A stretch of 42,732 bases of DNA from Acidobacteriota bacterium. GTDB taxonomy: Bacteria > Acidobacteriota > Terriglobia > Terriglobales > Acidobacteriaceae. Location: NCBI GenBank assembly GCA_003225075.1, contig QIAP01000048.1, positions 1 through 42,732 of the forward strand, given 5' to 3'. Shown here piece by piece: positions 19,176 to 40,214 of this stretch. The translations under genes and the position numbers were made by a program. Within the stretch, counting starts at the first letter, position 1. Each line of letters opens with the position of its first letter. Under the pieces are notes generated by a model. It was not told the DNA's origin. It did no database searches and saw only the letters and a list, made by a program, of their open reading frames with translations.

Positions 19176-20198
19176 ATGAACTGGTCGGAGCAGGTTGTTC
19201 TTGTCACCGGAGGTACGGGTTCATTCGGCAAGAAATTTGTCGAGATCATGCTGCGGGACTATCACCCCAAGAAACTTGTCATCTTCAGTCGCGATGAATT
19301 GAAGCAGCACGACATGCGGGCGTCCGGTTTCAACCATCCGAGCCTGCGCTATTTCATCGGCGATGTTCGGGACCAATCGAGGCTGGAGCGTGCCTTCGCG
19401 GGCGTAACGGTGGTGATTCACGCAGCTGCCCTCAAGCAGGTCCCGGCCTGTGAATACAATCCCTTCGAAGCGATCCAAACCAACATCATGGGCGGTCGCA
19501 ACGTGATCGACGCCGCGATCAATCAAGGCGTACGGCGGATCTTTGCCCTTAGCACGGACAAGGCGGTAAATCCGATCAATCTTTATGGTGCGACCAAACT
19601 CTGCGCTGAAAAGATGTTCGTACAAGCCAACGCGTATGCCGGTGCGCAAGACACCCGTTTCAGTTGTGCGCGCTACGGGAACGTTGTCGGTAGCAGAGGC
19701 AGTGTTATTCCTGTTTTTCTGGAGCAACGCAAAAAAGGCAAAATCACTATCACGGACCCACGGATGACTCGATTTTGGATTACCCTCGATCACGGCGTGA
19801 AGTTCGTGATCCATTGCATCGAGAACATGCACGGCGGAGAGATCTTTGTTCCTAAGATTCCCAGCATGACGCTTTTGGAAATGGCGAAGAGTGTTGCCCC
19901 AAGTTGCGAGGTTGATTACATCGGCATACGTGCTGGAGAAAAGCTGCACGAGGTTCTTCTTTCCGAAGACGAAGCACGGAACGCACTAGAAGTGGACGAG
20001 ATGTACATAATCCAGCCTTCCCACCCATGGTGGAAACGAGAGAACTGGGTAGACGCAACTCCGCTGCCTGAAGGCTTTCGCTATACCAGTGACACTAATT
20101 CGCGTTGGCTTAGCGGAGACGAATTGCAAGACCTCATTGCGCCTGATATGCGGGTGCTGGCACATACGGGAAGGCAGCGCCAAGCCGCGGTTGTGTAG
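19176..20198 (+). CDS. pseB: UDP-GlcNAc 4,6-dehydratase (inverting), PseB
   Basis: PseB converts UDP-GlcNAc to the 4-keto-6-deoxy-L-arabino sugar, the first step of pseudaminic acid synthesis. The 340-residue cytosolic protein shows the NADP-binding TGGTGSFG (residues 11-18), the family-typical FSRDELKQ (37-44), AALKQVPACEYNP (84-96), STDKAVNP (126-133) and the catalytic Y137-x3-K141. The FSRDE and STDKA motifs favour PseB over the larger membrane-bound PglF/CapD dehydratases. GAGG lies eight bases before the ATG. It leads a run of genes with very short gaps (pseC starts 12 bases after it), so one transcript is likely. Confidence 0.95.
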   Translation: MNWSEQVVLVTGGTGSFGKKFVEIMLRDYHPKKLVIFSRDELKQHDMRASGFNHPSLRYFIGDVRDQSRLERAFAGVTVVIHAAALKQVPACEYNPFEAIQTNIMGGRNVIDAAINQGVRRIFALSTDKAVNPINLYGATKLCAEKMFVQANAYAGAQDTRFSCARYGNVVGSRGSVIPVFLEQRKKGKITITDPRMTRFWITLDHGVKFVIHCIENMHGGEIFVPKIPSMTLLEMAKSVAPSCEVDYIGIRAGEKLHEVLLSEDEARNALEVDEMYIIQPSHPWWKRENWVDATPLPEGFRYTSDTNSRWLSGDELQDLIAPDMRVLAHTGRQRQAAVV

Positions 20199-20209
20199 AG
20201 AAATTCAAA

Positions 20210-21421
20210 ATGAGCGTGACGCCAGTCAGCAGCGAAATACTCGCCATCAACGGCGGATCTCCCGTTCGCAAGACGCTGCTTCCTTATGGTCGGCAAACAC
20301 TGGACGATGACGATATTCACGCGATCGTGAACGTGTTGCGATCGGGCTGGCTGACTACCGGGCCGAAAGTCGAGGAATTCGAAGAAGCGTTTGCCGCACG
20401 GGTAGGGGCCAAGTACGCAGTGAGTTTCAGTTCAGGTACGGCGGCACTACATGGCGCCGCGTTCGCGGCTGGGCTTAAGGCCGGAGATGAAGCCATCACA
20501 ACGCCCATGACCTTCTGCGCCACGGCCAATTGCGCGTTGTACCAGGGAGCAAGACCTGTATTCGCCGATGTTTGTCGCGATACGCTGAATCTTGACCCTG
20601 AGCAAGCGATTACTAAGATTACGTCCAAAACCCGAGCAATCCTTCCCGTCGACTATGCCGGCCATCCTGCCGATCTTGACGCAATTCTTCAAATCGCTGA
20701 ACGCAACGGGTTAATTGTCATTGAAGACGCTTGCCACGCGCTCGGCGCGGAATACCGGGGCAGGTTGGTGGGCAGCATCGCGCATATGACCGTCTTCAGC
20801 TTTCACCCGGTTAAACATCTGACCACCGGTGAAGGTGGAATGGTGACCACCGAGCGGCCCGATCTTGCCAAAACTCTACGTCGATTCCGCAATCATGGAA
20901 TTGACAGTGATGCGCGCCAGCGGCAAACGGCCGGACAATGGCATTACGAAATGGTTCTGCTTGGTTTCAACTATCGTCTGACCGATATCGGTTGCGCTTT
21001 AGGTCTGAGCCAGATGGAAAAGCTTGAATCAAATCTGTCCCGTCGTCGTGAGGTTGCAGACCGCTACACTGAAGCTTTCCGGTATATTCCTGGCGTAGTG
21101 CCTCCGAGCGTTCGATCCGATGTCCTTCCAGCTTGGCATCTTTATCCTATTCGTCTCGATCTAGCACACCTTTGCGCGGATCGAGGGCAAGTGTTTCGCG
21201 CGCTGAGGGCGGAAAACATCGGTGTAAATGTCCACTACATTCCCGTGCATCAGCATCCGTTCTATCGCGAACGCTTCGGATACAAGGGCGGGGAGTATCC
21301 CGTGGCAGAGGACGCATATCAACACCTCATTAGTTTGCCTATGTTCCACGGTATCAGCGACGAGGATTTAGCCGACGTAATCCATGCTGTCATCAAGACA
21401 GTTGGACATTTCGCGAAGTGA
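20210..21421 (+). CDS. pseC: UDP-4-amino-4,6-dideoxy-AltNAc transaminase, PseC
   Basis: This DegT/DnrJ/EryC1-family PLP aminotransferase uses glutamate to aminate the PseB product at C4. The 403 residues start with the typical INGGSPVRK and contain SFSSGTAALHGA (substrate/PLP phosphate), the D173 region in IEDACHALGA and the Schiff-base Lys202 in SFHPVKHLTTGEGG. RNHGIDSD and NYRLTDIGCALGLSQ are characteristic of PseC. It follows pseB by 12 bases with an AGAGA site before the ATG. Together with pseG and pseI downstream this points to the pseudaminic rather than the legionaminic route. Confidence 0.94.
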   Translation: MSVTPVSSEILAINGGSPVRKTLLPYGRQTLDDDDIHAIVNVLRSGWLTTGPKVEEFEEAFAARVGAKYAVSFSSGTAALHGAAFAAGLKAGDEAITTPMTFCATANCALYQGARPVFADVCRDTLNLDPEQAITKITSKTRAILPVDYAGHPADLDAILQIAERNGLIVIEDACHALGAEYRGRLVGSIAHMTVFSFHPVKHLTTGEGGMVTTERPDLAKTLRRFRNHGIDSDARQRQTAGQWHYEMVLLGFNYRLTDIGCALGLSQMEKLESNLSRRREVADRYTEAFRYIPGVVPPSVRSDVLPAWHLYPIRLDLAHLCADRGQVFRALRAENIGVNVHYIPVHQHPFYRERFGYKGGEYPVAEDAYQHLISLPMFHGISDEDLADVIHAVIKTVGHFAK

Positions 21422-21445
21422 ACGAGCAACACCAGAGGTTGTTCA

Positions 21446-22141
21446 ATGGTAAAAGCACTTCCGGAAACCGCCCAGATACGCGAATGGACGAGCGACTTCG
21501 GTCGCGAGTACACCGACCGCAACACGTTTACGCCTCTTGAACTGGACGGTCTCTACCAGCGGAACTATGGGGTTACGAGGACAGAGTTGAATCGGCGCTT
21601 TCTAGAAGGTGTTCCCAAAGATGCGCAGATCCTCGAAATAGGATGCAACATGGGAAACCAACTGTTGCTATTGCAGGAGATGGGATTCACTAACCTGCAA
21701 GCCATTGAAATTCAGAGCTATGCTTTGGAGCGGGCCAAGAACCGTCTCCCTAACGCTAATTTCAAGCGGGCGTCTGCGCTGGCGCTTCCTTATGCAGATA
21801 GGCGTTTCGATTTAGTATTCACGTCCGGAGTGTTAATCCACATTGGGCCCCCTGACCTGCCGGTTGTTCTTGATGAGATTCATCGCTGCGCAAAACGTTG
21901 GATTTGGGGATTGGAATACTATTCGCCCGGCATGACTGAAGTGCCTTATCGCGGTCACCATGATTTGTTGTGGAAGGCGGATTATTCCAGTCTTTACCTC
22001 CAACGGTTTGCAGATCTAGAACTGGCCTGCGAACGCCGGCTACCTTATCTCGAGAACGAAAACGTCGATACGATGTTCCTTTTGCTGCGTAAGGCTAGCG
22101 GGACAGAAACCATTCTTGGAGCTCGCCAAGGAGAAGGGTGA
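21446..22141 (+). CDS. Pse-cluster-associated SAM methyltransferase
   Basis: A 231-residue class I methyltransferase with the SAM loop ILEIGCNMGNQ at about residues 62-72 and a post-I acidic Glu (AIEIQ). It resembles the methylase family that co-occurs with pseudaminic acid genes (known as pseudaminic acid biosynthesis-associated methylase): the start TDRNTFTPLELDGLYQ, FTSGVLIHIGPPDL and EYYSPGMTEVPYRGHHDLLWKAD are typical. The acceptor is not established for the family; methylation of the nonulosonate or its precursor is inferred. AGAGG precedes the ATG. Its stop overlaps the start of the cytidylyltransferase (GTGA, four bases), indicating translational coupling. Confidence 0.88.
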   Translation: MVKALPETAQIREWTSDFGREYTDRNTFTPLELDGLYQRNYGVTRTELNRRFLEGVPKDAQILEIGCNMGNQLLLLQEMGFTNLQAIEIQSYALERAKNRLPNANFKRASALALPYADRRFDLVFTSGVLIHIGPPDLPVVLDEIHRCAKRWIWGLEYYSPGMTEVPYRGHHDLLWKADYSSLYLQRFADLELACERRLPYLENENVDTMFLLLRKASGTETILGARQGEG

Positions 22142-22869
22142 GAGTAGTCGCGATCATTCAGGCGCGCATGGGGAGTACTCGTTTGCCCGGCAAGGTGCTG
22201 GCTGATTTGGGCGGCGCCACCGTCTTGGCGCGGGTAGTGAATCGTACCCGCGGTGCCACAACGGTGGACGAAGTTGAAGTCGCGACCTCGATCCAGACTG
22301 CCGATGACGCAATCGTAAAGGAATGCATGCGTCTTTCTGTGGGCTGTTTTCGAGGTGATGAGACTGATGTTCTTGATCGGTACTATCGCGCTGCGCAGAA
22401 TTGCGGAGCCGAAGCAATTGTGCGCATCACGGCAGATTGCCCTTTGATCGAGCCTGAGTTGATTGACAAGACTGTCAATGCTTTCCTCGACCATCAGTCC
22501 GACTACGCCACCAACTCTCTTATTGTGACTTACCCGCGTGGTTTGGATGTCGAGGTGTTCACTTGGGCGGCATTGGTACGCGCCTGGCATGAGGCAAAGG
22601 AATTTTATCAGCGAGTGCACGTCACGCCGTATATTTACCAGAATCCACAACTCTTTCGACTGTTTTCTTTGACAAGTGAATCGGACGACAGCCAGTATCG
22701 GTGGACTCTAGACACAGCCGAGGACCTAGAGATAATCCGCGCGATTTATGTGCACTTCGGCAATCGCGTTGACTTTCACTGGCGCGACGTAACGGCACTG
22801 ATGGACCGTGAGCCAGATTTGGCGGAGCTCAACGCGCACATACGGCAGAAAACACTGCACGAAGGATAA
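22138..22869 (+). CDS. pseF: SpsF/PseF-type cytidylyltransferase
   Basis: The 243-residue protein is a nucleotidyltransferase with the N-terminal signature IIQARMGSTRLPGK (residues 6-19) and ITADCPLIEPELID, as in the SpsF (COG1861) cytidylyltransferases. In this operon it should activate the finished nonulosonate as the CMP-sugar, the role of PseF. SpsF-type enzymes differ from the NeuA-like PseF of Campylobacter, so the symbol is assigned by context. The GTG start at 22138 overlaps the preceding stop by four bases and has AGGAGA upstream. RWTLDTAEDLEIIRAIY near the C-terminus is also characteristic. Confidence 0.88.
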   Translation: MRVVAIIQARMGSTRLPGKVLADLGGATVLARVVNRTRGATTVDEVEVATSIQTADDAIVKECMRLSVGCFRGDETDVLDRYYRAAQNCGAEAIVRITADCPLIEPELIDKTVNAFLDHQSDYATNSLIVTYPRGLDVEVFTWAALVRAWHEAKEFYQRVHVTPYIYQNPQLFRLFSLTSESDDSQYRWTLDTAEDLEIIRAIYVHFGNRVDFHWRDVTALMDREPDLAELNAHIRQKTLHEG

Positions 22870-22875
22870 CAACAG

Positions 22876-23646
22876 ATGCCCATCGTACGATTAACCAACT
22901 ATGTCGAGGCCTACAGGGTTAGGGCGCTATCACCAGATATTCATCGAATGGCGGGACGAGATGACAAAAACGCTCTAACGGAATTCGTGAATTCTCGAAT
23001 CTTGGAAGGAATGAAGTTCGGCCTGGGTGACGTTTTGGTGGACATCGGGTGTGGTGACGGGTGTCTCCTGCGAATGGCGGCTGGAAAGGTTTCCCGCCGG
23101 ATTGGCGTCATACCGACGAGGGAGGAGAAAGAAAGACTTGAGACGATTCTTCCGGACGTCACTTTTCTAACCGCGCTGGTACAAAAACTACCGTTAGAAT
23201 CTGAATCTGTTTCGCATATCGTTTGCAACAGTGTTTTGTTGTTGCTGGATTCCGAAAGTGATGTGACAGCTGCGTTGCAAGAGATGGCCCGGGTTGCACG
23301 TAGGCATGCCAAGATTTGGATCGGAGAAATCCCTGATGCGGACGAATACGAAGAACTTCATATGTACCGCGGAACCTCCGAATGGGATTTGCTCAGGCAC
23401 CTGCGGAAAAACGCAGGATGGAGACCCGCTCTTGGCATGGGACGAAGGCTGGTGAGGGGTTTTCTAGGTCGAGAAAGCCTAGTCTTGAATTCTGCTCGGA
23501 TGTTTCACGCCACCCCTGAGCGGCTGATTCGAATGGCTACGCAATGCGGCCTGAAGCTAGAGACTTACTTTAGACATCAAGAGTTGGACTTGCGAGGTGA
23601 CATCGTAGACTCGGCTCACCGATTCGATTACGTCTTCCGCAAGTGA
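22876..23646 (+). CDS. Class I SAM-dependent methyltransferase
   Basis: A 256-residue protein with the SAM-binding loop VLVDIGCGDG at residues 53-62 and a Methyltransf_11-like middle region (PLESESVSHIVCNSVLLLLD, then LQEMARVARRHAKIWIGEIPD). It has no membrane segment. It sits inside the pse operon six bases after the cytidylyltransferase and 15 before pseG, with AAGGA nine bases before its ATG. This is the second methyltransferase of the operon, and it is unlike the first in sequence. Its target is unknown; the location argues for modification of the nonulosonate, such as O- or N-methylation, but this is inference. Confidence 0.85.
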   Translation: MPIVRLTNYVEAYRVRALSPDIHRMAGRDDKNALTEFVNSRILEGMKFGLGDVLVDIGCGDGCLLRMAAGKVSRRIGVIPTREEKERLETILPDVTFLTALVQKLPLESESVSHIVCNSVLLLLDSESDVTAALQEMARVARRHAKIWIGEIPDADEYEELHMYRGTSEWDLLRHLRKNAGWRPALGMGRRLVRGFLGRESLVLNSARMFHATPERLIRMATQCGLKLETYFRHQELDLRGDIVDSAHRFDYVFRK

Positions 23647-23661
23647 GGGAATAAAAGCCTC

Positions 23662-24792
23662 GTGTTTGTTGCTGCAATTGAGTGTCTGAGTATGGTCATA
23701 ATTCGGTCGTGGCCTCGAATGCAAGCGCAGGGTCTGATAATCCGTGCTGATGCCAGCGCCGAAATTGGCGTGGGACATGTTATGCGTTGCCTGGCTCTTG
23801 CTCAGGCTTGGCAAAACGCGGGTGGACGTGTGACGTTTGCCTTGCATGAGTCTCCCCAATCTTTGGGTGAGCGCCTGTGCAATGAAAGTTGCGAAGTAGT
23901 TCGACTGGGCGCCCATCCAGGTTCGGTGCTGGATGCCGATCAGACCATTGCGCTAGCTCACCGCTGTGCATCCCAGACCTTGGTCCTCGATGGAAGCCGG
24001 TTCGATGCCGACTACCAGAAACGGATAAAGAAAGCTGGGTTAAGGCTCTTGTTATTGGATGACTATGCTACGGCCGCGCACTACTACGCTGATTGGGTCT
24101 GGAATGCCGATCTGCCGATTCGCGACGAGATGTACTCTGGCCGCGAACCATGGACGCAGCTAATGCTTGGGCCTAAGTACGCCCTCCTGGGCGACGAGTT
24201 TCTGCATAGTCACCCGGAAGAACGGATTGTGCCCGAAGTCGCATCGCGGCTGCTCATCACAATGGGGGGTAGCGATCCCCAAAACATGACAGTCACCGCT
24301 ATGCATGGTTTGCGGCACTTGAAGAAATCGACTTTACAGGTACGTGTTGTAATCGGATCCGCTAATCCCAAGCTAGATTTAGTCACGCAGGAGGTTAAGG
24401 AAAATATCCAAGAAGTGGAGATATTATGCGATGTCAAGGATATGGCTGCACAGATGGCATGGGCGGATATAGCTATTGCAGCCGTGGGCGTTACCCTTTG
24501 GGAATTGCTTTACATGGGGCCGGCAATCGTTTGTTGGCCACGCTACCCGGCCGACGTTGAAACAGTTTCAAGGTTATGCAAAATGGGCGCAGCCTTGTCG
24601 TTGGAACCCGACGCCTCCGCCGTCGCCGTCACCTCCGCCGTCGCTGGTCTCATGTCGAATGCAGGTCGCAGGCAGCGTATGTGCGCGGAGGGGCGGAGAA
24701 TTGTTGATGGGCTTGGGGCAAAGAGGGTAGTTCAGGCCCTGTGCGCCGGATCCTCCTGCGAAGAAGAAAGCTCCCGCGAGATGCGAGTGTAA
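23662..24792 (+). CDS. pseG: UDP-sugar hydrolase PseG
   Basis: PseG removes UDP from UDP-2,4-diacetamido-2,4,6-trideoxy-altropyranose to free the sugar for condensation with PEP. The GT-B-like fold shows RADASAEIGVGHVMRCLALA, in which the GxGH His is the catalytic base, TLVLDGSRFDADYQ, LLLDDYA, MLGPKYALLGDEF and the nucleotide-binding LITMGGSDPQN. From GTG 23662 it has 376 residues, but family homology begins only around residue 24; ATG 23692 or 23719 are equally possible starts. Near the C-terminus an 18-bp near-duplication encodes SAVAVT/SAVAGL. The TAA stop shares one base with the ATG of the next gene. Confidence 0.92.
   Translation: MFVAAIECLSMVIIRSWPRMQAQGLIIRADASAEIGVGHVMRCLALAQAWQNAGGRVTFALHESPQSLGERLCNESCEVVRLGAHPGSVLDADQTIALAHRCASQTLVLDGSRFDADYQKRIKKAGLRLLLLDDYATAAHYYADWVWNADLPIRDEMYSGREPWTQLMLGPKYALLGDEFLHSHPEERIVPEVASRLLITMGGSDPQNMTVTAMHGLRHLKKSTLQVRVVIGSANPKLDLVTQEVKENIQEVEILCDVKDMAAQMAWADIAIAAVGVTLWELLYMGPAIVCWPRYPADVETVSRLCKMGAALSLEPDASAVAVTSAVAGLMSNAGRRQRMCAEGRRIVDGLGAKRVVQALCAGSSCEEESSREMRV
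24614..24649. repeat. 18-bp tandem near-repeat inside pseG
   Basis: The 13-base unit CCTCCGCCGTCGC at 24614-24626 recurs at 24632-24644, an 18-base period that keeps the frame and encodes two SAVA blocks in a C-terminal helix of PseG. It is probably a small replication-slippage duplication without known function. Confidence 0.5.
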
Positions 24793-25541
24793 TGAAAGTT
24801 GCCATTTCACAGCCTACGTATCTGCCGTGGCTCGGCTACTTCGACCTTATCGACCAAGTGGACACGTTCGTACTTTTGGACACGGTGCAGTTCGAAAAGC
24901 AGTCCTGGCAGCAGCGCAACCGTATCAAGACACCCATGGGGTTGCAGTGGCTCACCGTGCCTGTAAGTTTTCGCGGCCACTTTGGGCAAAAGATCCAGGA
25001 TGTTGAGATTCGCGAACCAGAGTTCCGCCGCAACCACCTGCGTGCAGTGGCACTGAACTACAGCCGCGCGCCCTTCTTCAACAATTACTTTCCGAGACTA
25101 TCCGCGATTCTCGAGGAATGTAGCGCGGGACGCCTGGTGGATTTGAATGTGCACCTATTGAAGTGGTTGCTGCAAGAGCTCGGAGTTGGTACGCCTCTGG
25201 TCCTGGCATCCTCCTTAGGGCTAGAAGGGAAAAGAACAGAGTTGCTCGCCAAAATTTGCCAGGAGTTGAACGCGAGACAGTACCTCTCTCCCATCGGTTC
25301 GGCAGGGTATCTTCTAGAAGAGATGGATGTTCTTACAGATCGCGGTCTGCACCTGCTTTTCCAGAACTACACACACCCAGAATACAGACAGTCATTCCCG
25401 CCTTTTGTTGCCTACGCCTGTGTTCTGGATCTCATCTTTAATGAAGGTGACCGTTCGATGGAGATAATCCGGAGCGGCCGCGGGATGCCCTTTTTGCTGC
25501 AAGACGTTGCGGCTAAAGTTCCCGAGGCGAAGGAGGCGTGA
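24792..25541 (+). CDS. WbqC-family protein
   Basis: The 249-residue protein matches the WbqC family: AISQPTYLPWLGYFDLI at residues 4-20, DTVQFEKQSWQQRNRIKT (30-47), HLLKWLLQELGVGTP, YLSPIGSAGYLLEEM and FPPFVAYACVLDLIFNEG. WbqC proteins occur in O-antigen and nonulosonate clusters, and their activity is not firmly established. Here it sits between pseG and pseI, overlapping the first by one base and the second by four, so it is co-translated with pathway enzymes. Because no PseH acetyltransferase is present, a role in N-acylation is a reasonable guess. The start is set by the conserved N-terminus and the TAATG junction. Confidence 0.9.
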   Translation: MKVAISQPTYLPWLGYFDLIDQVDTFVLLDTVQFEKQSWQQRNRIKTPMGLQWLTVPVSFRGHFGQKIQDVEIREPEFRRNHLRAVALNYSRAPFFNNYFPRLSAILEECSAGRLVDLNVHLLKWLLQELGVGTPLVLASSLGLEGKRTELLAKICQELNARQYLSPIGSAGYLLEEMDVLTDRGLHLLFQNYTHPEYRQSFPPFVAYACVLDLIFNEGDRSMEIIRSGRGMPFLLQDVAAKVPEAKEA

Positions 25542-26626
25542 TCGCGCCAGCTATTCAGATCGGCCGACGACGGATAGCAGAGGGGCAATCCGTGTATGTG
25601 ATTGCCGAGCTCTCTGCTAACCATCATCAGGATTTCGAGCAGGCTGTGCGTATCGTGCGTGCTGCCAAAGAAGCAGGCGCAGACGCGGTAAAGCTACAAA
25701 CCTACACGCCGGATACGATTACGATCCGTTCCGAACTGGAATGTTTCCGAATCGCAGGCGGAACTATATGGGACGGCCGCACGCTCCACGACCTTTACAG
25801 CGAGGCCCACACCCCGTGGGAGTGGCAGCCGAAGCTGAAGGCAATTGCAAATCAATTGGGACTCGATCTATTCTCCAGCGCCTTTGACCCGTCTGCCGTG
25901 GATTTTCTGGAGCAGATGGAGGTGCCCGCACATAAGATCGCGTCCCCGGAACTAGTTGACATTCCGCTGATAGAGAAGATGGCGGGAACAGGAAAGCCAC
26001 TAATTCTTTCCACGGGTATGGCTACATTGGCAGAGATTGAAGAAGCAATTGAAGCGGCACGCGCAGCGGGAGGAACCCAGATCGCGTTGCTGCGCTGTAC
26101 GAGCGCTTACCCGGCGCCTGCAGAGGAGATGAACCTTCGTGCGATCCCCGACTTGATCCGCCGTTTTGGGTTGCCTGTCGGCCTCTCAGATCACACTTTG
26201 GGCATTGCCGTACCAGTTGCCGCGGTATCTTTAGGTGCGTGTCTCATTGAAAAACACTTGACCCTTGCTCGTGCCGATGGCGGCCCAGACAGCGCCTTTT
26301 CACTCGAACCTCATGAGTTCAGAGAGATGGTAACTGCGATAAGGATTGCGCAGAAGGCTCTTGGAAATGTTCAGTTTAGAGTCACTCGTCAGGAGGAGAG
26401 CACGGTTAGGTACCGGCGATCGCTCTTTGTCGTCGACGAGGTGAAAGAAGGCCAGTTATTCACAGTCGACAACGTTCGATCCATTCGACCTGCCCAAGGC
26501 CTGCATCCCCGTTATCTCCCCTTTGTTCTCGGCCGGCGAGCGACACGCAAACTGGAAAAAGGTACGCCGCTTGCCTGGAACATGGTGGAAGGCGCCGCAT
26601 CCCGTGCAAGAGCTTCGGGAGAGTGA
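25538..26626 (+). CDS. pseI: Pseudaminic acid synthase PseI
   Basis: PseI condenses the freed 6-deoxy-altrose derivative with phosphoenolpyruvate to make the nine-carbon acid. The 362-residue enzyme has the NeuB TIM barrel (AELSANHHQDFEQA, DAVKLQTYTPDT, VPAHKIASPELVDIPLI, LSTGMATLAEIEEA, GLSDHTLGIAVPVAAVSLGA, EKHLTL) and a C-terminal SAF antifreeze-like domain from about residue 295. The DGGPDSAFSLEPHEF motif favours PseI over NeuB or LegI. The GTG start overlaps the WbqC stop by four bases. It is the last gene of the compact pse block; 297 bases without a clear gene follow. Confidence 0.94.
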   Translation: MIAPAIQIGRRRIAEGQSVYVIAELSANHHQDFEQAVRIVRAAKEAGADAVKLQTYTPDTITIRSELECFRIAGGTIWDGRTLHDLYSEAHTPWEWQPKLKAIANQLGLDLFSSAFDPSAVDFLEQMEVPAHKIASPELVDIPLIEKMAGTGKPLILSTGMATLAEIEEAIEAARAAGGTQIALLRCTSAYPAPAEEMNLRAIPDLIRRFGLPVGLSDHTLGIAVPVAAVSLGACLIEKHLTLARADGGPDSAFSLEPHEFREMVTAIRIAQKALGNVQFRVTRQEESTVRYRRSLFVVDEVKEGQLFTVDNVRSIRPAQGLHPRYLPFVLGRRATRKLEKGTPLAWNMVEGAASRARASGE

Positions 26627-26923
26627 TTCCTGCCGCTAGGGAATCCCTGTTCCCTACGTTCGGTAATGGTCGGTGCTCAAATCGATCCCTGCACCCCCCT
26701 CTCTACTTCCCAAATCTCAATTCAACGCCCGAACAATTCCGCGGAAGTGATCTCCGTGCAATCGTAATAACGTCGCGAAAATCGCATCACTTTTCTCACC
26801 TCGCCTCAGGTGCTCAACGGTTTGTATGTCGCCGACTCTAGCGGGTCCAAGAGAACCACATCTGGCAATCTCTTGTCTCAATCGAATCGTGTAATTTGGA
26901 GGCGGGCGATTAATCGGAGAACC
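26627..26923. other. Non-coding gap after pseI, with a hairpin at 26637-26656
   Basis: A perfect 7-bp inverted repeat (TAGGGAA at 26637-26643, TTCCCTA at 26650-26656) with a six-base loop lies just after the pseI stop. No T-tract follows, so it is not a standard intrinsic terminator; it could be an RNA-stabilising or processing structure. The remaining bases show no convincing gene; short open frames there lack family features. A promoter for the downstream genes may lie here, but I cannot point to one. Confidence 0.4.
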
Positions 26924-29773
26924 GTGAAAGTCTTATTGCTCAATCCCGAAGACACACCTTATTCGGGAGAATGGCAAGAACATCTATGGGATCTCATCGT
27001 CGACCTGGGCTGGGCTGGCCCCGACTGTCATCGTCGCTGGGGGCAGCAACTGGGAACTCAGGTCATTAGTCTTTACGATTTTCAGGAACCCATCGAGGTA
27101 TTCCGCAAAGTTAACGAAATCATCGATGTGGGCCGGAATCAGCTCCTCGACTCACAAGGAATCGACTGGTGGGAGCTCATCGCAGCCGTTCAATATGAGA
27201 AATTACAGTTTCTTTGTCTCCTTAATCGGTTGAAGGAATATTTGGGAACTTCCGCCGATCTGACAGCAAGCCGCCCGCCTACTAATTTGTTCGAGCAAGT
27301 CTGGGATCGGAGAATTCCCTGTTTTCACTCTCGGCCGAGTCGCAGGATGAACTGGGAGGGTCGGGCCGGACGCGTCTGGAATCTAACTCCCGCTCAGATT
27401 GTTGAGGTCGCATTTGACAAGTGGGACGCCGACTACAAACTCCGCCGATACGCCAACTTGCAACTGCGGTTGCGTAATAATGATCCACTGGTTTTGTTGC
27501 CCTCTCCTTATGTGAATGTCTCACGTGTGGTTCTGGCTTACGCAAGTCTACTGCCGGAGAGAAAGTTTTTGCTGGTGTCAACACGCCATAGTGGGAAGTG
27601 GAAGTCGGGACACCCAAATGTCCTACGAACGTCATTGGCCGCCTACGCGCGATCCTCACGGAGATCTCGGCGCGAGGCGGAATCTCTCGTCAAAGGGTGG
27701 GATGAGTTGAAAAGAGTTCTTTTGACGGGATTGCCCGAACTACGATGGGCCACCCAAGCAGGATATTTCAACGACTTTGCCGAAAGATTAGCCGCCGGAG
27801 TATGCGCGCGTGACGCTTGGTGGAACCTACTTAGGAATGAACCAATCGAAAGCGTGCTCTGCGGTGACGACCTCAATATCTACACGCGCATTCCGCTGAT
27901 TTTGGCTAAACAGATGGGTTTACGCTCTATTTACTGTGCGCATGGAGCATTGGACGCGACCCTTCTATTCAAGCAGCGGTATGCCGATATCTACCTGGCA
28001 AAAGGTGAGATGGAAGCGGATTACATGGCTAGGATCTGCCGAGTCCCGCAGGAACGAATCGAGATCGGAGCACCCAACGCTCGAGCCAATCATGGGGGTC
28101 GCAAAGAATTCTCGTGCGCTAGCCGCTCAATTGTTTTCTTCTCTCAACCTTACGAGGTATACAAGGGCCGTCCGGAAGAGGCTTATCGGGAAATTTTGCC
28201 GCGCTTGTGCAATATCGCGCGTACCCATGATTGTAAGGTAATCGTAAAGTTGCATCCGTTCGAGAGCCGGCGCGAGCGGAAGAGGCTGATTGAGAGGGTC
28301 TTACCGCCATCAAAACGATCGCTCATTGAAATATCCGCTTGTCGCTTCGCTTCAGAGCTGTTTGATAAAGCCTGGTTTGGTATAAGCGTGAGTTCGAGCG
28401 TTGCTCTTGAGTGCGCTCAGCAAGGGATTCCCTTTTTCAACTGTGGATGGCTAGAGCCAAAAGACACCGGCTATGTCCAGCAATTTACGAAGTTCGGCGC
28501 GGGCCAGCTTCTGACATGCCCTGAAGAAATCGATAGCATTCCTAAGTTGATAAGAGAAACTAATTTGCGAGATCCGTCTTCCCTACTTTGTGAAACGATC
28601 AATTCCAAGAGCTTGGAACGATTCATGTTTGGCGATCTTCCTAGCGAGGTGCAAAAAGCCGTCCCCACTTTCGCATCGAAGGTGGCCGGCCGTCTTCTAA
28701 GACGGGTTTTCTATCCCTCATTATCCAAGGCCGGGTACCTATTCACGCGTGCGAACCGGTTTCAAAGCCTGGCCGTTATCACTTATCACGGCGTGCTTCC
28801 ATCCTCTTATCAAGAAGAAGATAGGTTTATTGACGGTGGCATGGTGCGCACGGATGCGTTTCGCCGGCAGCTCCGATGGCTCAAATCTCATTATTGCGTG
28901 ATCGATCCCGAGGCTTGTCATCGATGGCTCATGGGACGGGGCGATCTGCCTTCTCGAGCCGTGCTGCTGACGTGTGACGACGGCCTGCTTAGCACGGCGA
29001 CAGAGATGTTGCCGGTTCTGCACGAGGAGCAGGTTAAGTGCTTATTCTTTGTGACTGGCAGCTCACTTTGCGAGCATCCCGTGAGGCCATGGTATTTGCA
29101 GTTATATCTCCTGCTCCTCTGCGCACCGAGGGGCAGGACCGTTGTCCAGGTCGACTCATTGCGTCTGCATTTCAATCTTGGTAGCCGGCAGGAGCGGTGC
29201 GCAGTTTGGTGGCGGCTAGTAAAAGAGCTCTCAAAATACCCTGCCGATAAACGGCAAATGATTGTGAACCAGTTCCTGGATGTTCTTCGGTTGCCGCGAG
29301 AATGGGACTTGTCATATCGCCAAGAGCCGTCGCTGCGCGAGCGCTATACGACACTTTCTCGTTCCAACTTGCAGCAACTTGTGGACGCTGGAATGGCGAT
29401 AGGTAACCACACGCTGTCACATCCGCTATTGTCACAGTCTTCCGATGAAGTCTCCTGGAAGGAGATTGCAGGGACACAGGCTGAGCTCCAATCTGTGATT
29501 GGCACACCTGTATGGGCGCTTGCCTATCCATTTGGCGATCGAGGATCGATCACTCCCCGCGAAATCAGTCTAGCTGAACAAGCTGGTTATGATTGCGCAT
29601 TTCTAAATTTTGGAGGGTGCGTTCATCGTCAGTCCTTAAAACAGCGTTTTGCGCTGCCTCGACTGCACATCTCAGCCCGCATGGGAATCGCAGAAATCGA
29701 AGCCTTGGTTTCCGGGCTCGACTGGTCCCTGCGCGAACAATTTGCCAGGTATCGCTTTGCTGCCGCCAGTTAG
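26924..29773 (+). CDS. Fusion: GT-B-like surface-glycan enzyme plus NodB polysaccharide deacetylase
   Basis: The 949-residue product joins two modules. The first (about 1-620) resembles GT-B-fold capsule/CDP-glycerol or polysialyl-type transferases: IYCAHGALDAT, CKVIVKLHPFES, FGISVSSSVALECAQQGIPFF. The second (about 640-940) is a carbohydrate esterase 4 domain: AVITYHGVLP, the metal-binding/catalytic TCDDG (683-687), HTLSH (829-833) and WALAYPFGD. It should make or modify a glycan and remove N- or O-acetyl groups in the cytosol, as no signal peptide is seen. GTG 26924 is chosen because GGAGA precedes it and the natural Rossmann start (VKVLLLNPEDTPYSG) begins there; the frame opens at 26810. 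Acceptors are unknown. Confidence 0.85.
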   Translation: MKVLLLNPEDTPYSGEWQEHLWDLIVDLGWAGPDCHRRWGQQLGTQVISLYDFQEPIEVFRKVNEIIDVGRNQLLDSQGIDWWELIAAVQYEKLQFLCLLNRLKEYLGTSADLTASRPPTNLFEQVWDRRIPCFHSRPSRRMNWEGRAGRVWNLTPAQIVEVAFDKWDADYKLRRYANLQLRLRNNDPLVLLPSPYVNVSRVVLAYASLLPERKFLLVSTRHSGKWKSGHPNVLRTSLAAYARSSRRSRREAESLVKGWDELKRVLLTGLPELRWATQAGYFNDFAERLAAGVCARDAWWNLLRNEPIESVLCGDDLNIYTRIPLILAKQMGLRSIYCAHGALDATLLFKQRYADIYLAKGEMEADYMARICRVPQERIEIGAPNARANHGGRKEFSCASRSIVFFSQPYEVYKGRPEEAYREILPRLCNIARTHDCKVIVKLHPFESRRERKRLIERVLPPSKRSLIEISACRFASELFDKAWFGISVSSSVALECAQQGIPFFNCGWLEPKDTGYVQQFTKFGAGQLLTCPEEIDSIPKLIRETNLRDPSSLLCETINSKSLERFMFGDLPSEVQKAVPTFASKVAGRLLRRVFYPSLSKAGYLFTRANRFQSLAVITYHGVLPSSYQEEDRFIDGGMVRTDAFRRQLRWLKSHYCVIDPEACHRWLMGRGDLPSRAVLLTCDDGLLSTATEMLPVLHEEQVKCLFFVTGSSLCEHPVRPWYLQLYLLLLCAPRGRTVVQVDSLRLHFNLGSRQERCAVWWRLVKELSKYPADKRQMIVNQFLDVLRLPREWDLSYRQEPSLRERYTTLSRSNLQQLVDAGMAIGNHTLSHPLLSQSSDEVSWKEIAGTQAELQSVIGTPVWALAYPFGDRGSITPREISLAEQAGYDCAFLNFGGCVHRQSLKQRFALPRLHISARMGIAEIEALVSGLDWSLREQFARYRFAAAS

Positions 29774-38753: not shown

Positions 38754-40214
38754 ATGGATAGGACTATCCTGGGGGTTCGGGGTATGGGGCCTACAAAATG
38801 GAATCTCAAGCCGGACGGAATCACGCCTTCGATTCTTTGCCCTGTCGTATCTCAAGCCTCGGTTTCCGTCATAGACCGACCCCTGGCGACACCAAGTGGC
38901 CTCACGACTGCTTTGCGATCTAAGCCTTCGTCAAGGCCTCATATCTCCCACAAGATTCTCACGCTGATCTCTCGCGAAACCACCTCGGGCCGCTTCATAC
39001 CTGAGATGGATGGATTGCGCTTCGTGGCCATTAGTATGGTCATTCTTTTTCACCTGAACGGCTATCTGACTGCGAAATCTCCGTTGCACTATGTTGCTCC
39101 CCCGGACACGGATTGGCTTGCCAGGCTAGCCCTAGTGGGCTTCCACGGCGTCGAGCTGTTTTTTGTGATCAGCGGGTTCATGCTGGGTCTTCCTTTCGCT
39201 TCCCATTACATTGGAGGTGGACCGAAGGTTAGCCTCGAGAGATACTACCTGCGGCGTCTCACCCGTTTGGAACCGCCGTATTTCGTGACGCTTTTGGCAT
39301 TGTTCGCACTAGCAATCTGGATACAAGGCAAGAACACCATCAATCTTTTTCCGCATTTGGCAGCAAGTTGCTTTTACCTCCACAACCTCATCTACGGCTC
39401 TTCTAGTCCTGTGATTGGAGTCGCATGGTCCCTAGAGATCGAGGTGCAGTTTTATCTCTTAGTTCCTGTTCTCACGCTCTTGTTCGCAATTCGAAGAGTA
39501 AGACTACGGCGTTTCGTTATCAGTCTGCTTACCGTATCCGCATTGTCTTTACAGACGGTGTTCTTGCCGAGTCATAATCGCCTTTCTCTCTCGATCCTAG
39601 CTTACATTCAATTTTTCTTTATCGGTTTTCTTCTTGCAGATGTATATGTGAACGATTGGAAGGAGGCTCCAAGGCTGCGTTTGTACTGGGACGTAGCTGC
39701 GGCAGCAGGTTGGCCTCTACTTTTCATCGTGTTGCGATCAGACACGCTTACCCACTGGATCCTTCCCTACCTTGTATTCCTGCTTTACTACGCCACGTTT
39801 CGTGGTCTTCTCTTTAATCGTTTTTTCACAAACTCTTGGGTTACGGCCGTTGGAGGAATGTGTTATTCCATCTACCTCATTCATTATGAGGTTATCTCCG
39901 CCCTCGGGCGTGTAACTAAAAAGATCACTTTAGGCGGTTCATATTGGGTGCATCTGCTGATTCAGCTTGTCCTCGTCGGCCCTGTCATCGTACTGATCTG
40001 TGGTTTGTATTTCATTGTGCTCGAAAGGCCGTGCATGCGGCGTGATTGGCCAAAGCGGCTACGAAATCGCGCGGCGGAATTTATTTTAACCAAGCGACTT
40101 TTTCTTCGCAGCAGCAGAGTAGGTCGTGAGAGAAATGCGGAAAACTTCACGCGTCAAACCAGATATGCTGATCCTGTTACTGAGGATAAATGCACCTATT
40201 CCTCAATGCCATAG
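38754..40214 (+). CDS. Acyltransferase-3 (OafA/YrhL-like) membrane protein
   Basis: The 486-residue protein contains the family start RFIPEMDGLRFVAISMVILFH near residue 80, followed by about ten membrane helices, FFVISGFMLG, YYLRRLTRLEPPY, GVAWSLEIEVQFYLLVP and, at the end, IHYEVISAL. The histidine in VILFH is the catalytic residue of this class. It would transfer acetyl or another acyl group to a glycan across the membrane. Residues 1-78 form an unusual Ser/Thr/Pro-rich extension; GGAG before ATG 38754 supports that start, though an internal one is possible. The last 25 bases overlap the next gene. Confidence 0.9.
   Translation: MDRTILGVRGMGPTKWNLKPDGITPSILCPVVSQASVSVIDRPLATPSGLTTALRSKPSSRPHISHKILTLISRETTSGRFIPEMDGLRFVAISMVILFHLNGYLTAKSPLHYVAPPDTDWLARLALVGFHGVELFFVISGFMLGLPFASHYIGGGPKVSLERYYLRRLTRLEPPYFVTLLALFALAIWIQGKNTINLFPHLAASCFYLHNLIYGSSSPVIGVAWSLEIEVQFYLLVPVLTLLFAIRRVRLRRFVISLLTVSALSLQTVFLPSHNRLSLSILAYIQFFFIGFLLADVYVNDWKEAPRLRLYWDVAAAAGWPLLFIVLRSDTLTHWILPYLVFLLYYATFRGLLFNRFFTNSWVTAVGGMCYSIYLIHYEVISALGRVTKKITLGGSYWVHLLIQLVLVGPVIVLICGLYFIVLERPCMRRDWPKRLRNRAAEFILTKRLFLRSSRVGRERNAENFTRQTRYADPVTEDKCTYSSMP

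Follow-up and report, generated by a model that had tools for sequence, protein, structure and literature searches.

Gene content of the pse operon

The 42,732-nucleotide contig QIAP01000048.1, from an Acidobacteriota bacterium, carries a pseudaminic acid (pse) operon in which a gene of the WbqC family lies between pseG and pseI and no gene for the acetyltransferase PseH is recognised. The window analysed here is this entire contig, which belongs to a metagenome-assembled genome (MAG) of 4.79 Mb in 259 contigs with a completeness of 97.6%. The operon consists of eight open reading frames (ORFs), all on the + strand, in a single run at 19176..26626. The intergenic distances along the run are 11, 24, −4, 6, 15, −1, and −4 bases, which confirms the coupled eight-gene run of the initial annotation with its overlaps of 1 to 4 bases and gaps of at most 24 bases.

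The first gene, pseB (19176..20198), encodes an inverting UDP-GlcNAc 4,6-dehydratase and scores 491 bits against TIGR03589 (cut-off 408). It is followed by pseC (20210..21421), a UDP-4-amino-sugar transaminase with 465 bits against TIGR03588 (cut-off 424), whose product is an amine that needs acylation. The third gene (21446..22141) encodes a pseudaminic-acid-associated methylase (Pse_Me-ase; TIGR03587, 178 bits, cut-off 112), by its family name a known companion of pse genes, and the fifth (22876..23646) a second S-adenosylmethionine-dependent methyltransferase (Methyltransf_11, PF08241, 39.9 bits). Between them lies an SpsF-like cytidylyltransferase gene (22138..22869; CTP_transf_3, PF02348, 131 bits). 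No PseF was found in a search confined to the operon, where this gene reaches only 20 bits against TIGR03584 (cut-off 206); the SpsF-like enzyme probably takes the PseF step. The UDP-sugar hydrolase gene pseG (23662..24792) scores 189 bits against TIGR03590 (cut-off 154), and the pseudaminic acid synthase gene pseI (25538..26626) scores 475 bits against TIGR03586 (cut-off 340). PseB, PseC, PseG, and PseI of the pathway are thus all present in one operon above their NCBIfam cut-offs, and five family matches above curated cut-offs within one run are not a matter of chance.

The WbqC-family protein has 249 aa (24792..25541) and matches PF08889 at 228.9 bits over profile positions 1-217 of 218, above the gathering score. 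Its most likely start, read from the sequence, is the ATG at 24792, which overlaps the pseG stop codon by one base (TAATG), and not the GTG at 24741. WbqC and PseI are each present in a single copy above cut-off in the whole MAG.

Absence of PseH

The initial annotation had noted that PseH is missing from the operon and the window, and had proposed a search of the rest of the genome. Both the operon and the window are indeed negative with TIGR03585 and with local profiles, and the genome search gave no homologue above the 93-bit cut-off of TIGR03585 in the whole MAG. Five weak matches were obtained, the best with 40 bits. This best match is a small GNAT on a separate contig (C179), flanked by metH-like (read by eye) and TPR-like genes. 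Stop-to-stop frames of at least 70 aa in the window gave no match at E 0.1 to the local profiles of PseH and of acidobacterial GNATs, and the latter profile found matches of at most 28 bits in the MAG. Pfam, run on 27 ORFs of the window, showed no Formyl_trans_N match among the eight operon genes. With the limit relaxed to E 5, Pfam listed no GNAT family for WbqC itself and no GNAT domain at the PseG C-terminus.

The TIGR03585 cut-off is a poor test of absence because only 9 of 37 PseI-bearing gammaproteobacterial genomes reach it. Therefore, little weight can be given, when taken alone, to the finding that none of 37 genomes with WbqC reaches it; 30 of them do show a match of some kind at E 0.001. 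Hexapeptide acetyltransferases were looked for by a regular expression search only. It gave plausible repeats in loci L097 and L047 and shorter matches, which look like chance, in L071 and L096.

Gene company of WbqC

WbqC was found in 6 of 61 genomes and PseI above its cut-off in 5 of 200 genomes of the class, the window's own genome being counted in both. WbqC relatives with 59-69% identity belong to MAGs that bear the names Acidobacteriaceae, Terriglobia, Terriglobales, or Candidatus Sulfotelmatobacter. Terriglobia is a class of Acidobacteriota, and Sulfotelmatobacter also belongs to this phylum, which makes an acidobacterial source of the window very probable. The order PseG-WbqC-PseI recurs in G007 (same contig as L065) and G022 (L069), and its visible part in G006 (L075), where the contig end cuts it. 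The pse locus of G014 has PseH (156 bits) and lacks WbqC. In G058, which lacks both PseH and WbqC, a formyltransferase sits between PseG and PseI. The slot next to PseG is therefore filled by PseH, a formyltransferase, or WbqC, depending on the relative. The G058 enzyme is a sugar N-formyltransferase (L052 10458-11228), and its neighbourhood also encodes a class III aminotransferase, a Gfo/Idh/MocA oxidoreductase, and a TylF-type methyltransferase. In G088, PseI lies on a 3.8-kb contig and adjoins a GNAT of 31 bits.

When genome contigs were scanned with an alignment of four WbqC proteins, 37 loci emerged. They belong to Acidobacteriota, Chloroflexi, a methanogen, Omnitrophica, WOR-1, Myxococcales, Verrucomicrobia, Bacteroidetes, Gammaproteobacteria, and others. 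A PseI/NeuB-type gene is present in 33/37 of these loci, PseG in 33/37, and one or the other in 36/37. In 19 of them, the start of PseI lies no more than 200 bases behind WbqC. The scan is biased to near relatives and therefore says little about WbqC at large. The acidobacterial set, assigned from MAG names, comprises 16 loci (L065-L077, L089, L092, and L101). In the tree of WbqC proteins the window clusters with L065 and L069 (support 0.90). None of these three WbqC loci has a GNAT, and the presence of GNAT is patchy over the tree.

A second, divergent WbqC lies behind PseI in L065 and L092 (152 and 143 bits to the window WbqC), perhaps one WbqC for each sugar amine. Two WbqC matches are split over two frames (G313:C1:1394149-1394764 and L089 8276-9050) and are possibly broken genes or assembly errors.

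Acylating genes in complete clusters

Of 369 gammaproteobacterial genomes surveyed, 37 have PseI (39 loci) and 9 have PseH above cut-off, and WbqC was found in 29. The control genome of Caulobacter vibrioides has both WbqC and PseI above cut-off, together with a PseH match at E 1e-15 or better. The PseI loci without WbqC were compared with the WbqC loci of the other scan. Partial clusters were kept outside (10 of the 39 PseI loci and 19 of the 37 WbqC loci), and L101 was removed from the WbqC set as the contig end cuts its WbqC. A GNAT or formyltransferase lies no more than 7 kb from PseI in 24 of the 28 complete WbqC-free clusters from Gammaproteobacteria, and neither is present in the other 4. 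Among the complete WbqC clusters, 7/17 have a GNAT and 10/17 have neither a GNAT nor a formyltransferase. The proportion of clusters with neither acylator (10/17 with WbqC vs. 4/28 without) differs with a Fisher p of 0.003, or 0.007 at 10/18 when L206, a complete cluster with both GNAT and WbqC, is added to the WbqC clusters; this is supporting evidence only, because phylogeny differs between the sets and the GNAT profile was partly trained on them. The four gammaproteobacterial clusters in which the local profiles detect none of GNAT, formyltransferase, and WbqC are L190, L210, L212, and L222.

The company of WbqC in Gammaproteobacteria also includes the sugar aminotransferases. Of 31 WbqC loci entered into the neighbour count, L251 and L220 were dropped as they showed no WbqC under the local gene choice. 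A DegT-type aminotransferase adjoins WbqC in 10 of the remaining 29 loci, compared with 41 of 374 other genes of these stretches (p 0.001). In Bacteroides thetaiotaomicron, the WbqC gene BT2884 likewise adjoins a DegT aminotransferase.

Predicted fold of WbqC

An AlphaFold2 model of WbqC was built on 36 aligned WbqC proteins and has a predicted local distance difference test score (pLDDT) of 94 and a predicted template modelling score (pTM) of 0.91. In a VIA-align comparison with the PDB, the top match is BshC of Bacillus subtilis (4wbd, a structure containing citrate and ADP), with Z 14.8 and a root mean square deviation (rmsd) of 3.3 over 225 of 249 residues (model positions 1-242). Z falls to 8.1 for the next match, tyrosyl-tRNA synthetase, with 7.5 for phosphopantetheine adenylyltransferase and 6.3 for pantothenate synthetase. 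Another model, headed by an Elusimicrobia protein that is 38% identical to the window WbqC, again places BshC first (Z 13.8, rmsd 3.0, 208 of 218 residues), followed by tyrosyl-tRNA synthetase at 8.6. The two models are not independent, because most of the alignment is common to both. On these models, WbqC is predicted to share its fold with BshC. GNAT and formyltransferase folds are not among the best 50 matches listed, which is no evidence against either.

BshC couples cysteine to the amine of glucosaminyl-malate (GlcN-malate). Related folds activate carboxylates or phosphates with nucleotides, and an HxGH-type motif begins their first helix. The near-invariant QPxYLPWxGY of WbqC is located at the place of this motif in the model, as judged by eye.

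Aminoacylated sugars and WbqC in E. coli

E. coli O-antigen loci allow the presence of WbqC to be set beside known sugar structures. Nine regions with vioA or DegT were read, out of 147 and 171 genomes with aminotransferase matches. The gene order in O121 is rfbB, rfbA, DegT aminotransferase, WbqC, GNAT, and the sugar 4-amino-4-deoxyquinovose (Qui4N) of this type carries N-acetylglycyl, as given in an excerpt of PMC3210612 that cites the O121 structure. Two loci with a flippase of the O123/O186 family have the order DegT, WbqC, hypothetical protein, GNAT, MaoC, and O123 has N-[(S)-3-hydroxybutyryl]-D-alanyl on Qui4N according to an excerpt of PMC10609480. The pattern fits, by analogy, an addition of the amino acid by WbqC and its capping by the GNAT. 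In types without WbqC, the slot after vioA holds other enzymes, namely the acetyltransferase VioB directly after vioA in O7 and an acyltransferase in O39, O116, and strain Z142-3. The O116 sugar carries plain acetyl in the quoted part of PMC3210612.

Amino acids are a common decoration of such sugars. Bacterial surface sugars often carry glycine, alanine, serine, aspartate, and others on their nitrogen, as summarised in a section of PMC10609480. The same source section lists the legionaminic acid of E. coli O161 with D-alanyl at N-7, and acetylalanyl legionaminic acid is described for Vibrio vulnificus CMCP6 in an excerpt of PMC7371886; N-7 aminoacylated nonulosonic acids are thus already in print. 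DNA queries from WbqC loci for the O161, O114, and V. vulnificus clusters returned only neuB of other types, vioA, rfbE, or nothing.

Proposed function of WbqC

WbqC is the best candidate for placing another acyl group on the amine made by PseC, because it swaps places with PseH and formyltransferase in the slot, adjoins aminotransferases, matches the E. coli chemistry, and has a BshC-like predicted fold. WbqC is accordingly proposed, with a probability of roughly 0.57, to be a BshC-like amino-acid:amino-sugar ligase that gives pseudaminic acid with an N-7 amino acid and replaces PseH acetylation at least partly. Gene content, the lack of PseH, the conserved neighbours, and the predicted fold are observations, from which we infer its role as a ligase, the identity of the donor as an amino acid, the use of ATP, and the step of action; any methylation of the product is likewise inferred. 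The initial annotation had left the acyl group open, and the evidence now points to an amino acid.

In the proposed mechanism, PseB and PseC would form UDP-4-amino-4,6-dideoxy-N-acetyl-altrosamine. WbqC, whose predicted fold is shared with BshC and the class I aminoacyl-tRNA synthetases, would then join the carboxyl group of a small amino acid to the new 4-amine, probably with ATP. PseG would release the sugar, PseI would add pyruvate, and the SpsF-like enzyme would activate the product to a CMP-pseudaminic acid. This course would place the amino acid on N-7 of the nine-carbon product, similar to the D-alanine on legionaminic acid of E. coli O161. The amino acid may remain free because the window lacks a cap, and where a GNAT is present this enzyme would perhaps cap it. 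WbqC may also use another acid or act at another position, and the division of labour may differ in the GNAT-bearing sister loci. A wider form of the proposal is held more tentatively, at somewhat less than even odds. It takes PF08889 as an unrecognised family of compact class I synthetase-like ligases across phyla that serves 4-amino-6-deoxy sugars and nonulosonic acids. PseH would be fully replaced in the window, leaving an uncapped and perhaps methylated N-7 amino acid, and in the sister loci a GNAT, either added or fused to PseG, would cap it.

Several observations weigh against a ligase that stands in for PseH. The most direct is the GNAT of ~150 aa found by the local profile just upstream of WbqC in 8 of the 16 acidobacterial loci. 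It is a separate gene in L068, L070, L089, and L101, is fused to the PseG C-terminus in L067 (8515-9990) and L071 (3903-5417) and to another domain in L066 (8403-10001), and is truncated in L075, where the contig begins inside it and just its end is visible. Pfam confirms the GNAT in all three loci tested (L089, L067, and L066). No upstream GNAT is present in 7 of the 16 (L065, L069, L072, L073, L074, L077, and L092), and L076 is cut at this place. A PseH-like GNAT also adjoins WbqC in L087, L096, and L206. In such loci the PseH step could fall to the GNAT, leaving a different role to WbqC. With regard to the fold, Foldseek alone found nothing that reached E 0.001, no solved structure was matched when the PDB was searched by sequence, and Pfam listed WbqC as the sole family at E 5, BshC not being matched; a common fold is also no proof of a common reaction. 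The cluster comparison pits mixed phyla against one class and uses a GNAT profile partly trained on the same loci. The link between chemistry and gene comes from a comparison of just two WbqC-bearing E. coli types with a few that lack it, and O123 and O186 are distinguished in the two loci solely by the name of the flippase. Strain S3 has vioA with neither WbqC nor an annotated acyltransferase behind it (L261 6008-7250), and its Qui4N amine may be free or modified from another locus.

Two side observations belong to these loci. The fusion partner in L066 is a domain of ~400 aa with a hint (E 0.09) of a DegT-type aminotransferase. The flippase of strain S3 is nevertheless named as O116 family.

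WbqC is not a plain PseH substitute, because a GNAT stands beside it in 8/16 acidobacterial loci and in L087, L096, and L206. Strict exclusion, with WbqC in place of PseH and never both, was dropped when the local profile showed that every second acidobacterial locus has a GNAT in front of WbqC. The earlier idea of an acyl group supplied by WbqC has become stronger and more specific through the slot swap, the aminotransferase neighbours, the E. coli chemistry, and the fold, and what fails, in half of the nearest relatives, is the rule that WbqC is there because PseH is missing.

Alternative explanations

The coexistence of GNAT and WbqC in the loci named above, together with the generic GNATs encoded in the MAG, would suit an unlinked general GNAT that acetylates the PseC product while WbqC acts on another group or a later intermediate. 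This is unlikely, since the GNATs of the MAG reach at most 40 bits to PseH, the one inspected (C179) lies outside any sugar locus, and the GNAT downstream of WbqC in E. coli O121 and O123/O186 can be read as a cap for the amino acid. Somewhat less likely still is a WbqC ligase that places a non-amino carboxylic acid, such as a hydroxy acid, glycerate, or similar, on the same amine. The fold family of WbqC does include pantothenate synthetase, an activator of a hydroxy acid, whereas BshC uses cysteine and both WbqC-bearing E. coli types of known structure have, in the excerpts available, an amino acid next to the sugar nitrogen.

The resemblance of the model to phosphopantetheine adenylyltransferase and glycerol-3-phosphate cytidylyltransferase could instead point to a nucleotidyltransferase or binding protein of the sugar pathway without a role in acylation. 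This is improbable, as BshC is far ahead (Z 14.8 and 13.8 vs. at most 7.9) and covers almost the entire model, and the operon already has a cytidylyltransferase. A further alternative is a free C-7 amine in the product, or a PseH gene within the 2 to 3 percent of the genome that the MAG does not cover. The MAG completeness of 97.6% leaves some room for a missed gene, and free Qui4N is reported for Idiomarina in the excerpt of PMC3210612. Both are nevertheless very improbable, given that 24 of the 28 complete WbqC-free clusters of Gammaproteobacteria have the acylating gene near PseI and that the closest WbqC relatives, L065 and L069, likewise lack a GNAT there.

Other genes of the operon and the window

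The methyltransferases were considered as a replacement for the GNAT cap and set aside, as relatives of the first one (66 to 77 bits) occur alongside GNAT/PseH in four gammaproteobacterial loci (L186, L198, L201, and L209). Relatives of the second are present in 2 of the 16 acidobacterial loci (L071 and L092). Behind pseI, a 987-aa protein (26810..29773, + strand) has a polysaccharide deacetylase C-terminus (PF01522, 70 bits) and a polysialyltransferase-like middle part (PF07388, 20.4 bits, below the cut-off of 23.3). Its relatives are found in 13/16 acidobacterial WbqC loci and also in G014, and it is a possible candidate for the transferase of the sugar. Among the glycan genes further downstream, a membrane Acyl_transf_3 protein (38754-40214) could O-acylate the polymer.

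Comparison with known systems

Excerpts of the literature call WbqC uncharacterised or merely list the family; no published function was found in them, and none of the papers searched names both WbqC and pseudaminic. If the proposal is true, a search for WbqC genes would predict aminoacylated O-antigens, capsules, and nonulosonic acids. It would explain the working of some pse and legionaminic acid (leg) clusters without PseH, and the fold family that unites BshC with the class I aminoacyl-tRNA synthetases would gain a branch that modifies sugars.

The canonical pseudaminic acid pathway, as in Campylobacter and Helicobacter, is PseB-C-H-G-I-F. The operon resembles it in PseB, PseC, PseG, and PseI, all above their cut-offs. 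In contrast, it has no PseH, an SpsF-like enzyme for PseF, and WbqC with two methyltransferases in addition. The formyl route to Pse5Ac7Fm differs by its Formyl_trans_N gene, which is absent from the operon and present in G058. BshC (4wbd) resembles WbqC in predicted fold over nearly the full length, and the amine of an amino sugar is the acceptor for BshC and the proposed acceptor for WbqC. However, WbqC has 249 aa compared with 540, shows 10-11% identity in fold alignments and no profile match, and keeps other gene company.

The WbqC proteins of E. coli O121 and O123/O186 belong to the same PF08889 family (216.6 and 221.7 bits), are 28% identical to the window protein, and likewise lie downstream of a sugar aminotransferase. 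There, they serve a dTDP-sugar pathway with a GNAT further down, whereas the window has a pse operon without a GNAT. VimA of Porphyromonas and Tannerella, proposed in an excerpt of PMC7468200 to transfer serine or glycine to an amino sugar, shares the proposed function of moving an amino acid to a sugar amine. It is a putative N-acetyltransferase with a FemAB-like match, unlike WbqC. The N-7 aminoacyl legionaminic acids of E. coli O161 (D-alanyl) and V. vulnificus CMCP6 (acetylalanyl) resemble the case described here in the kind of predicted product only, the sugar being legionaminic acid there and pseudaminic acid here.

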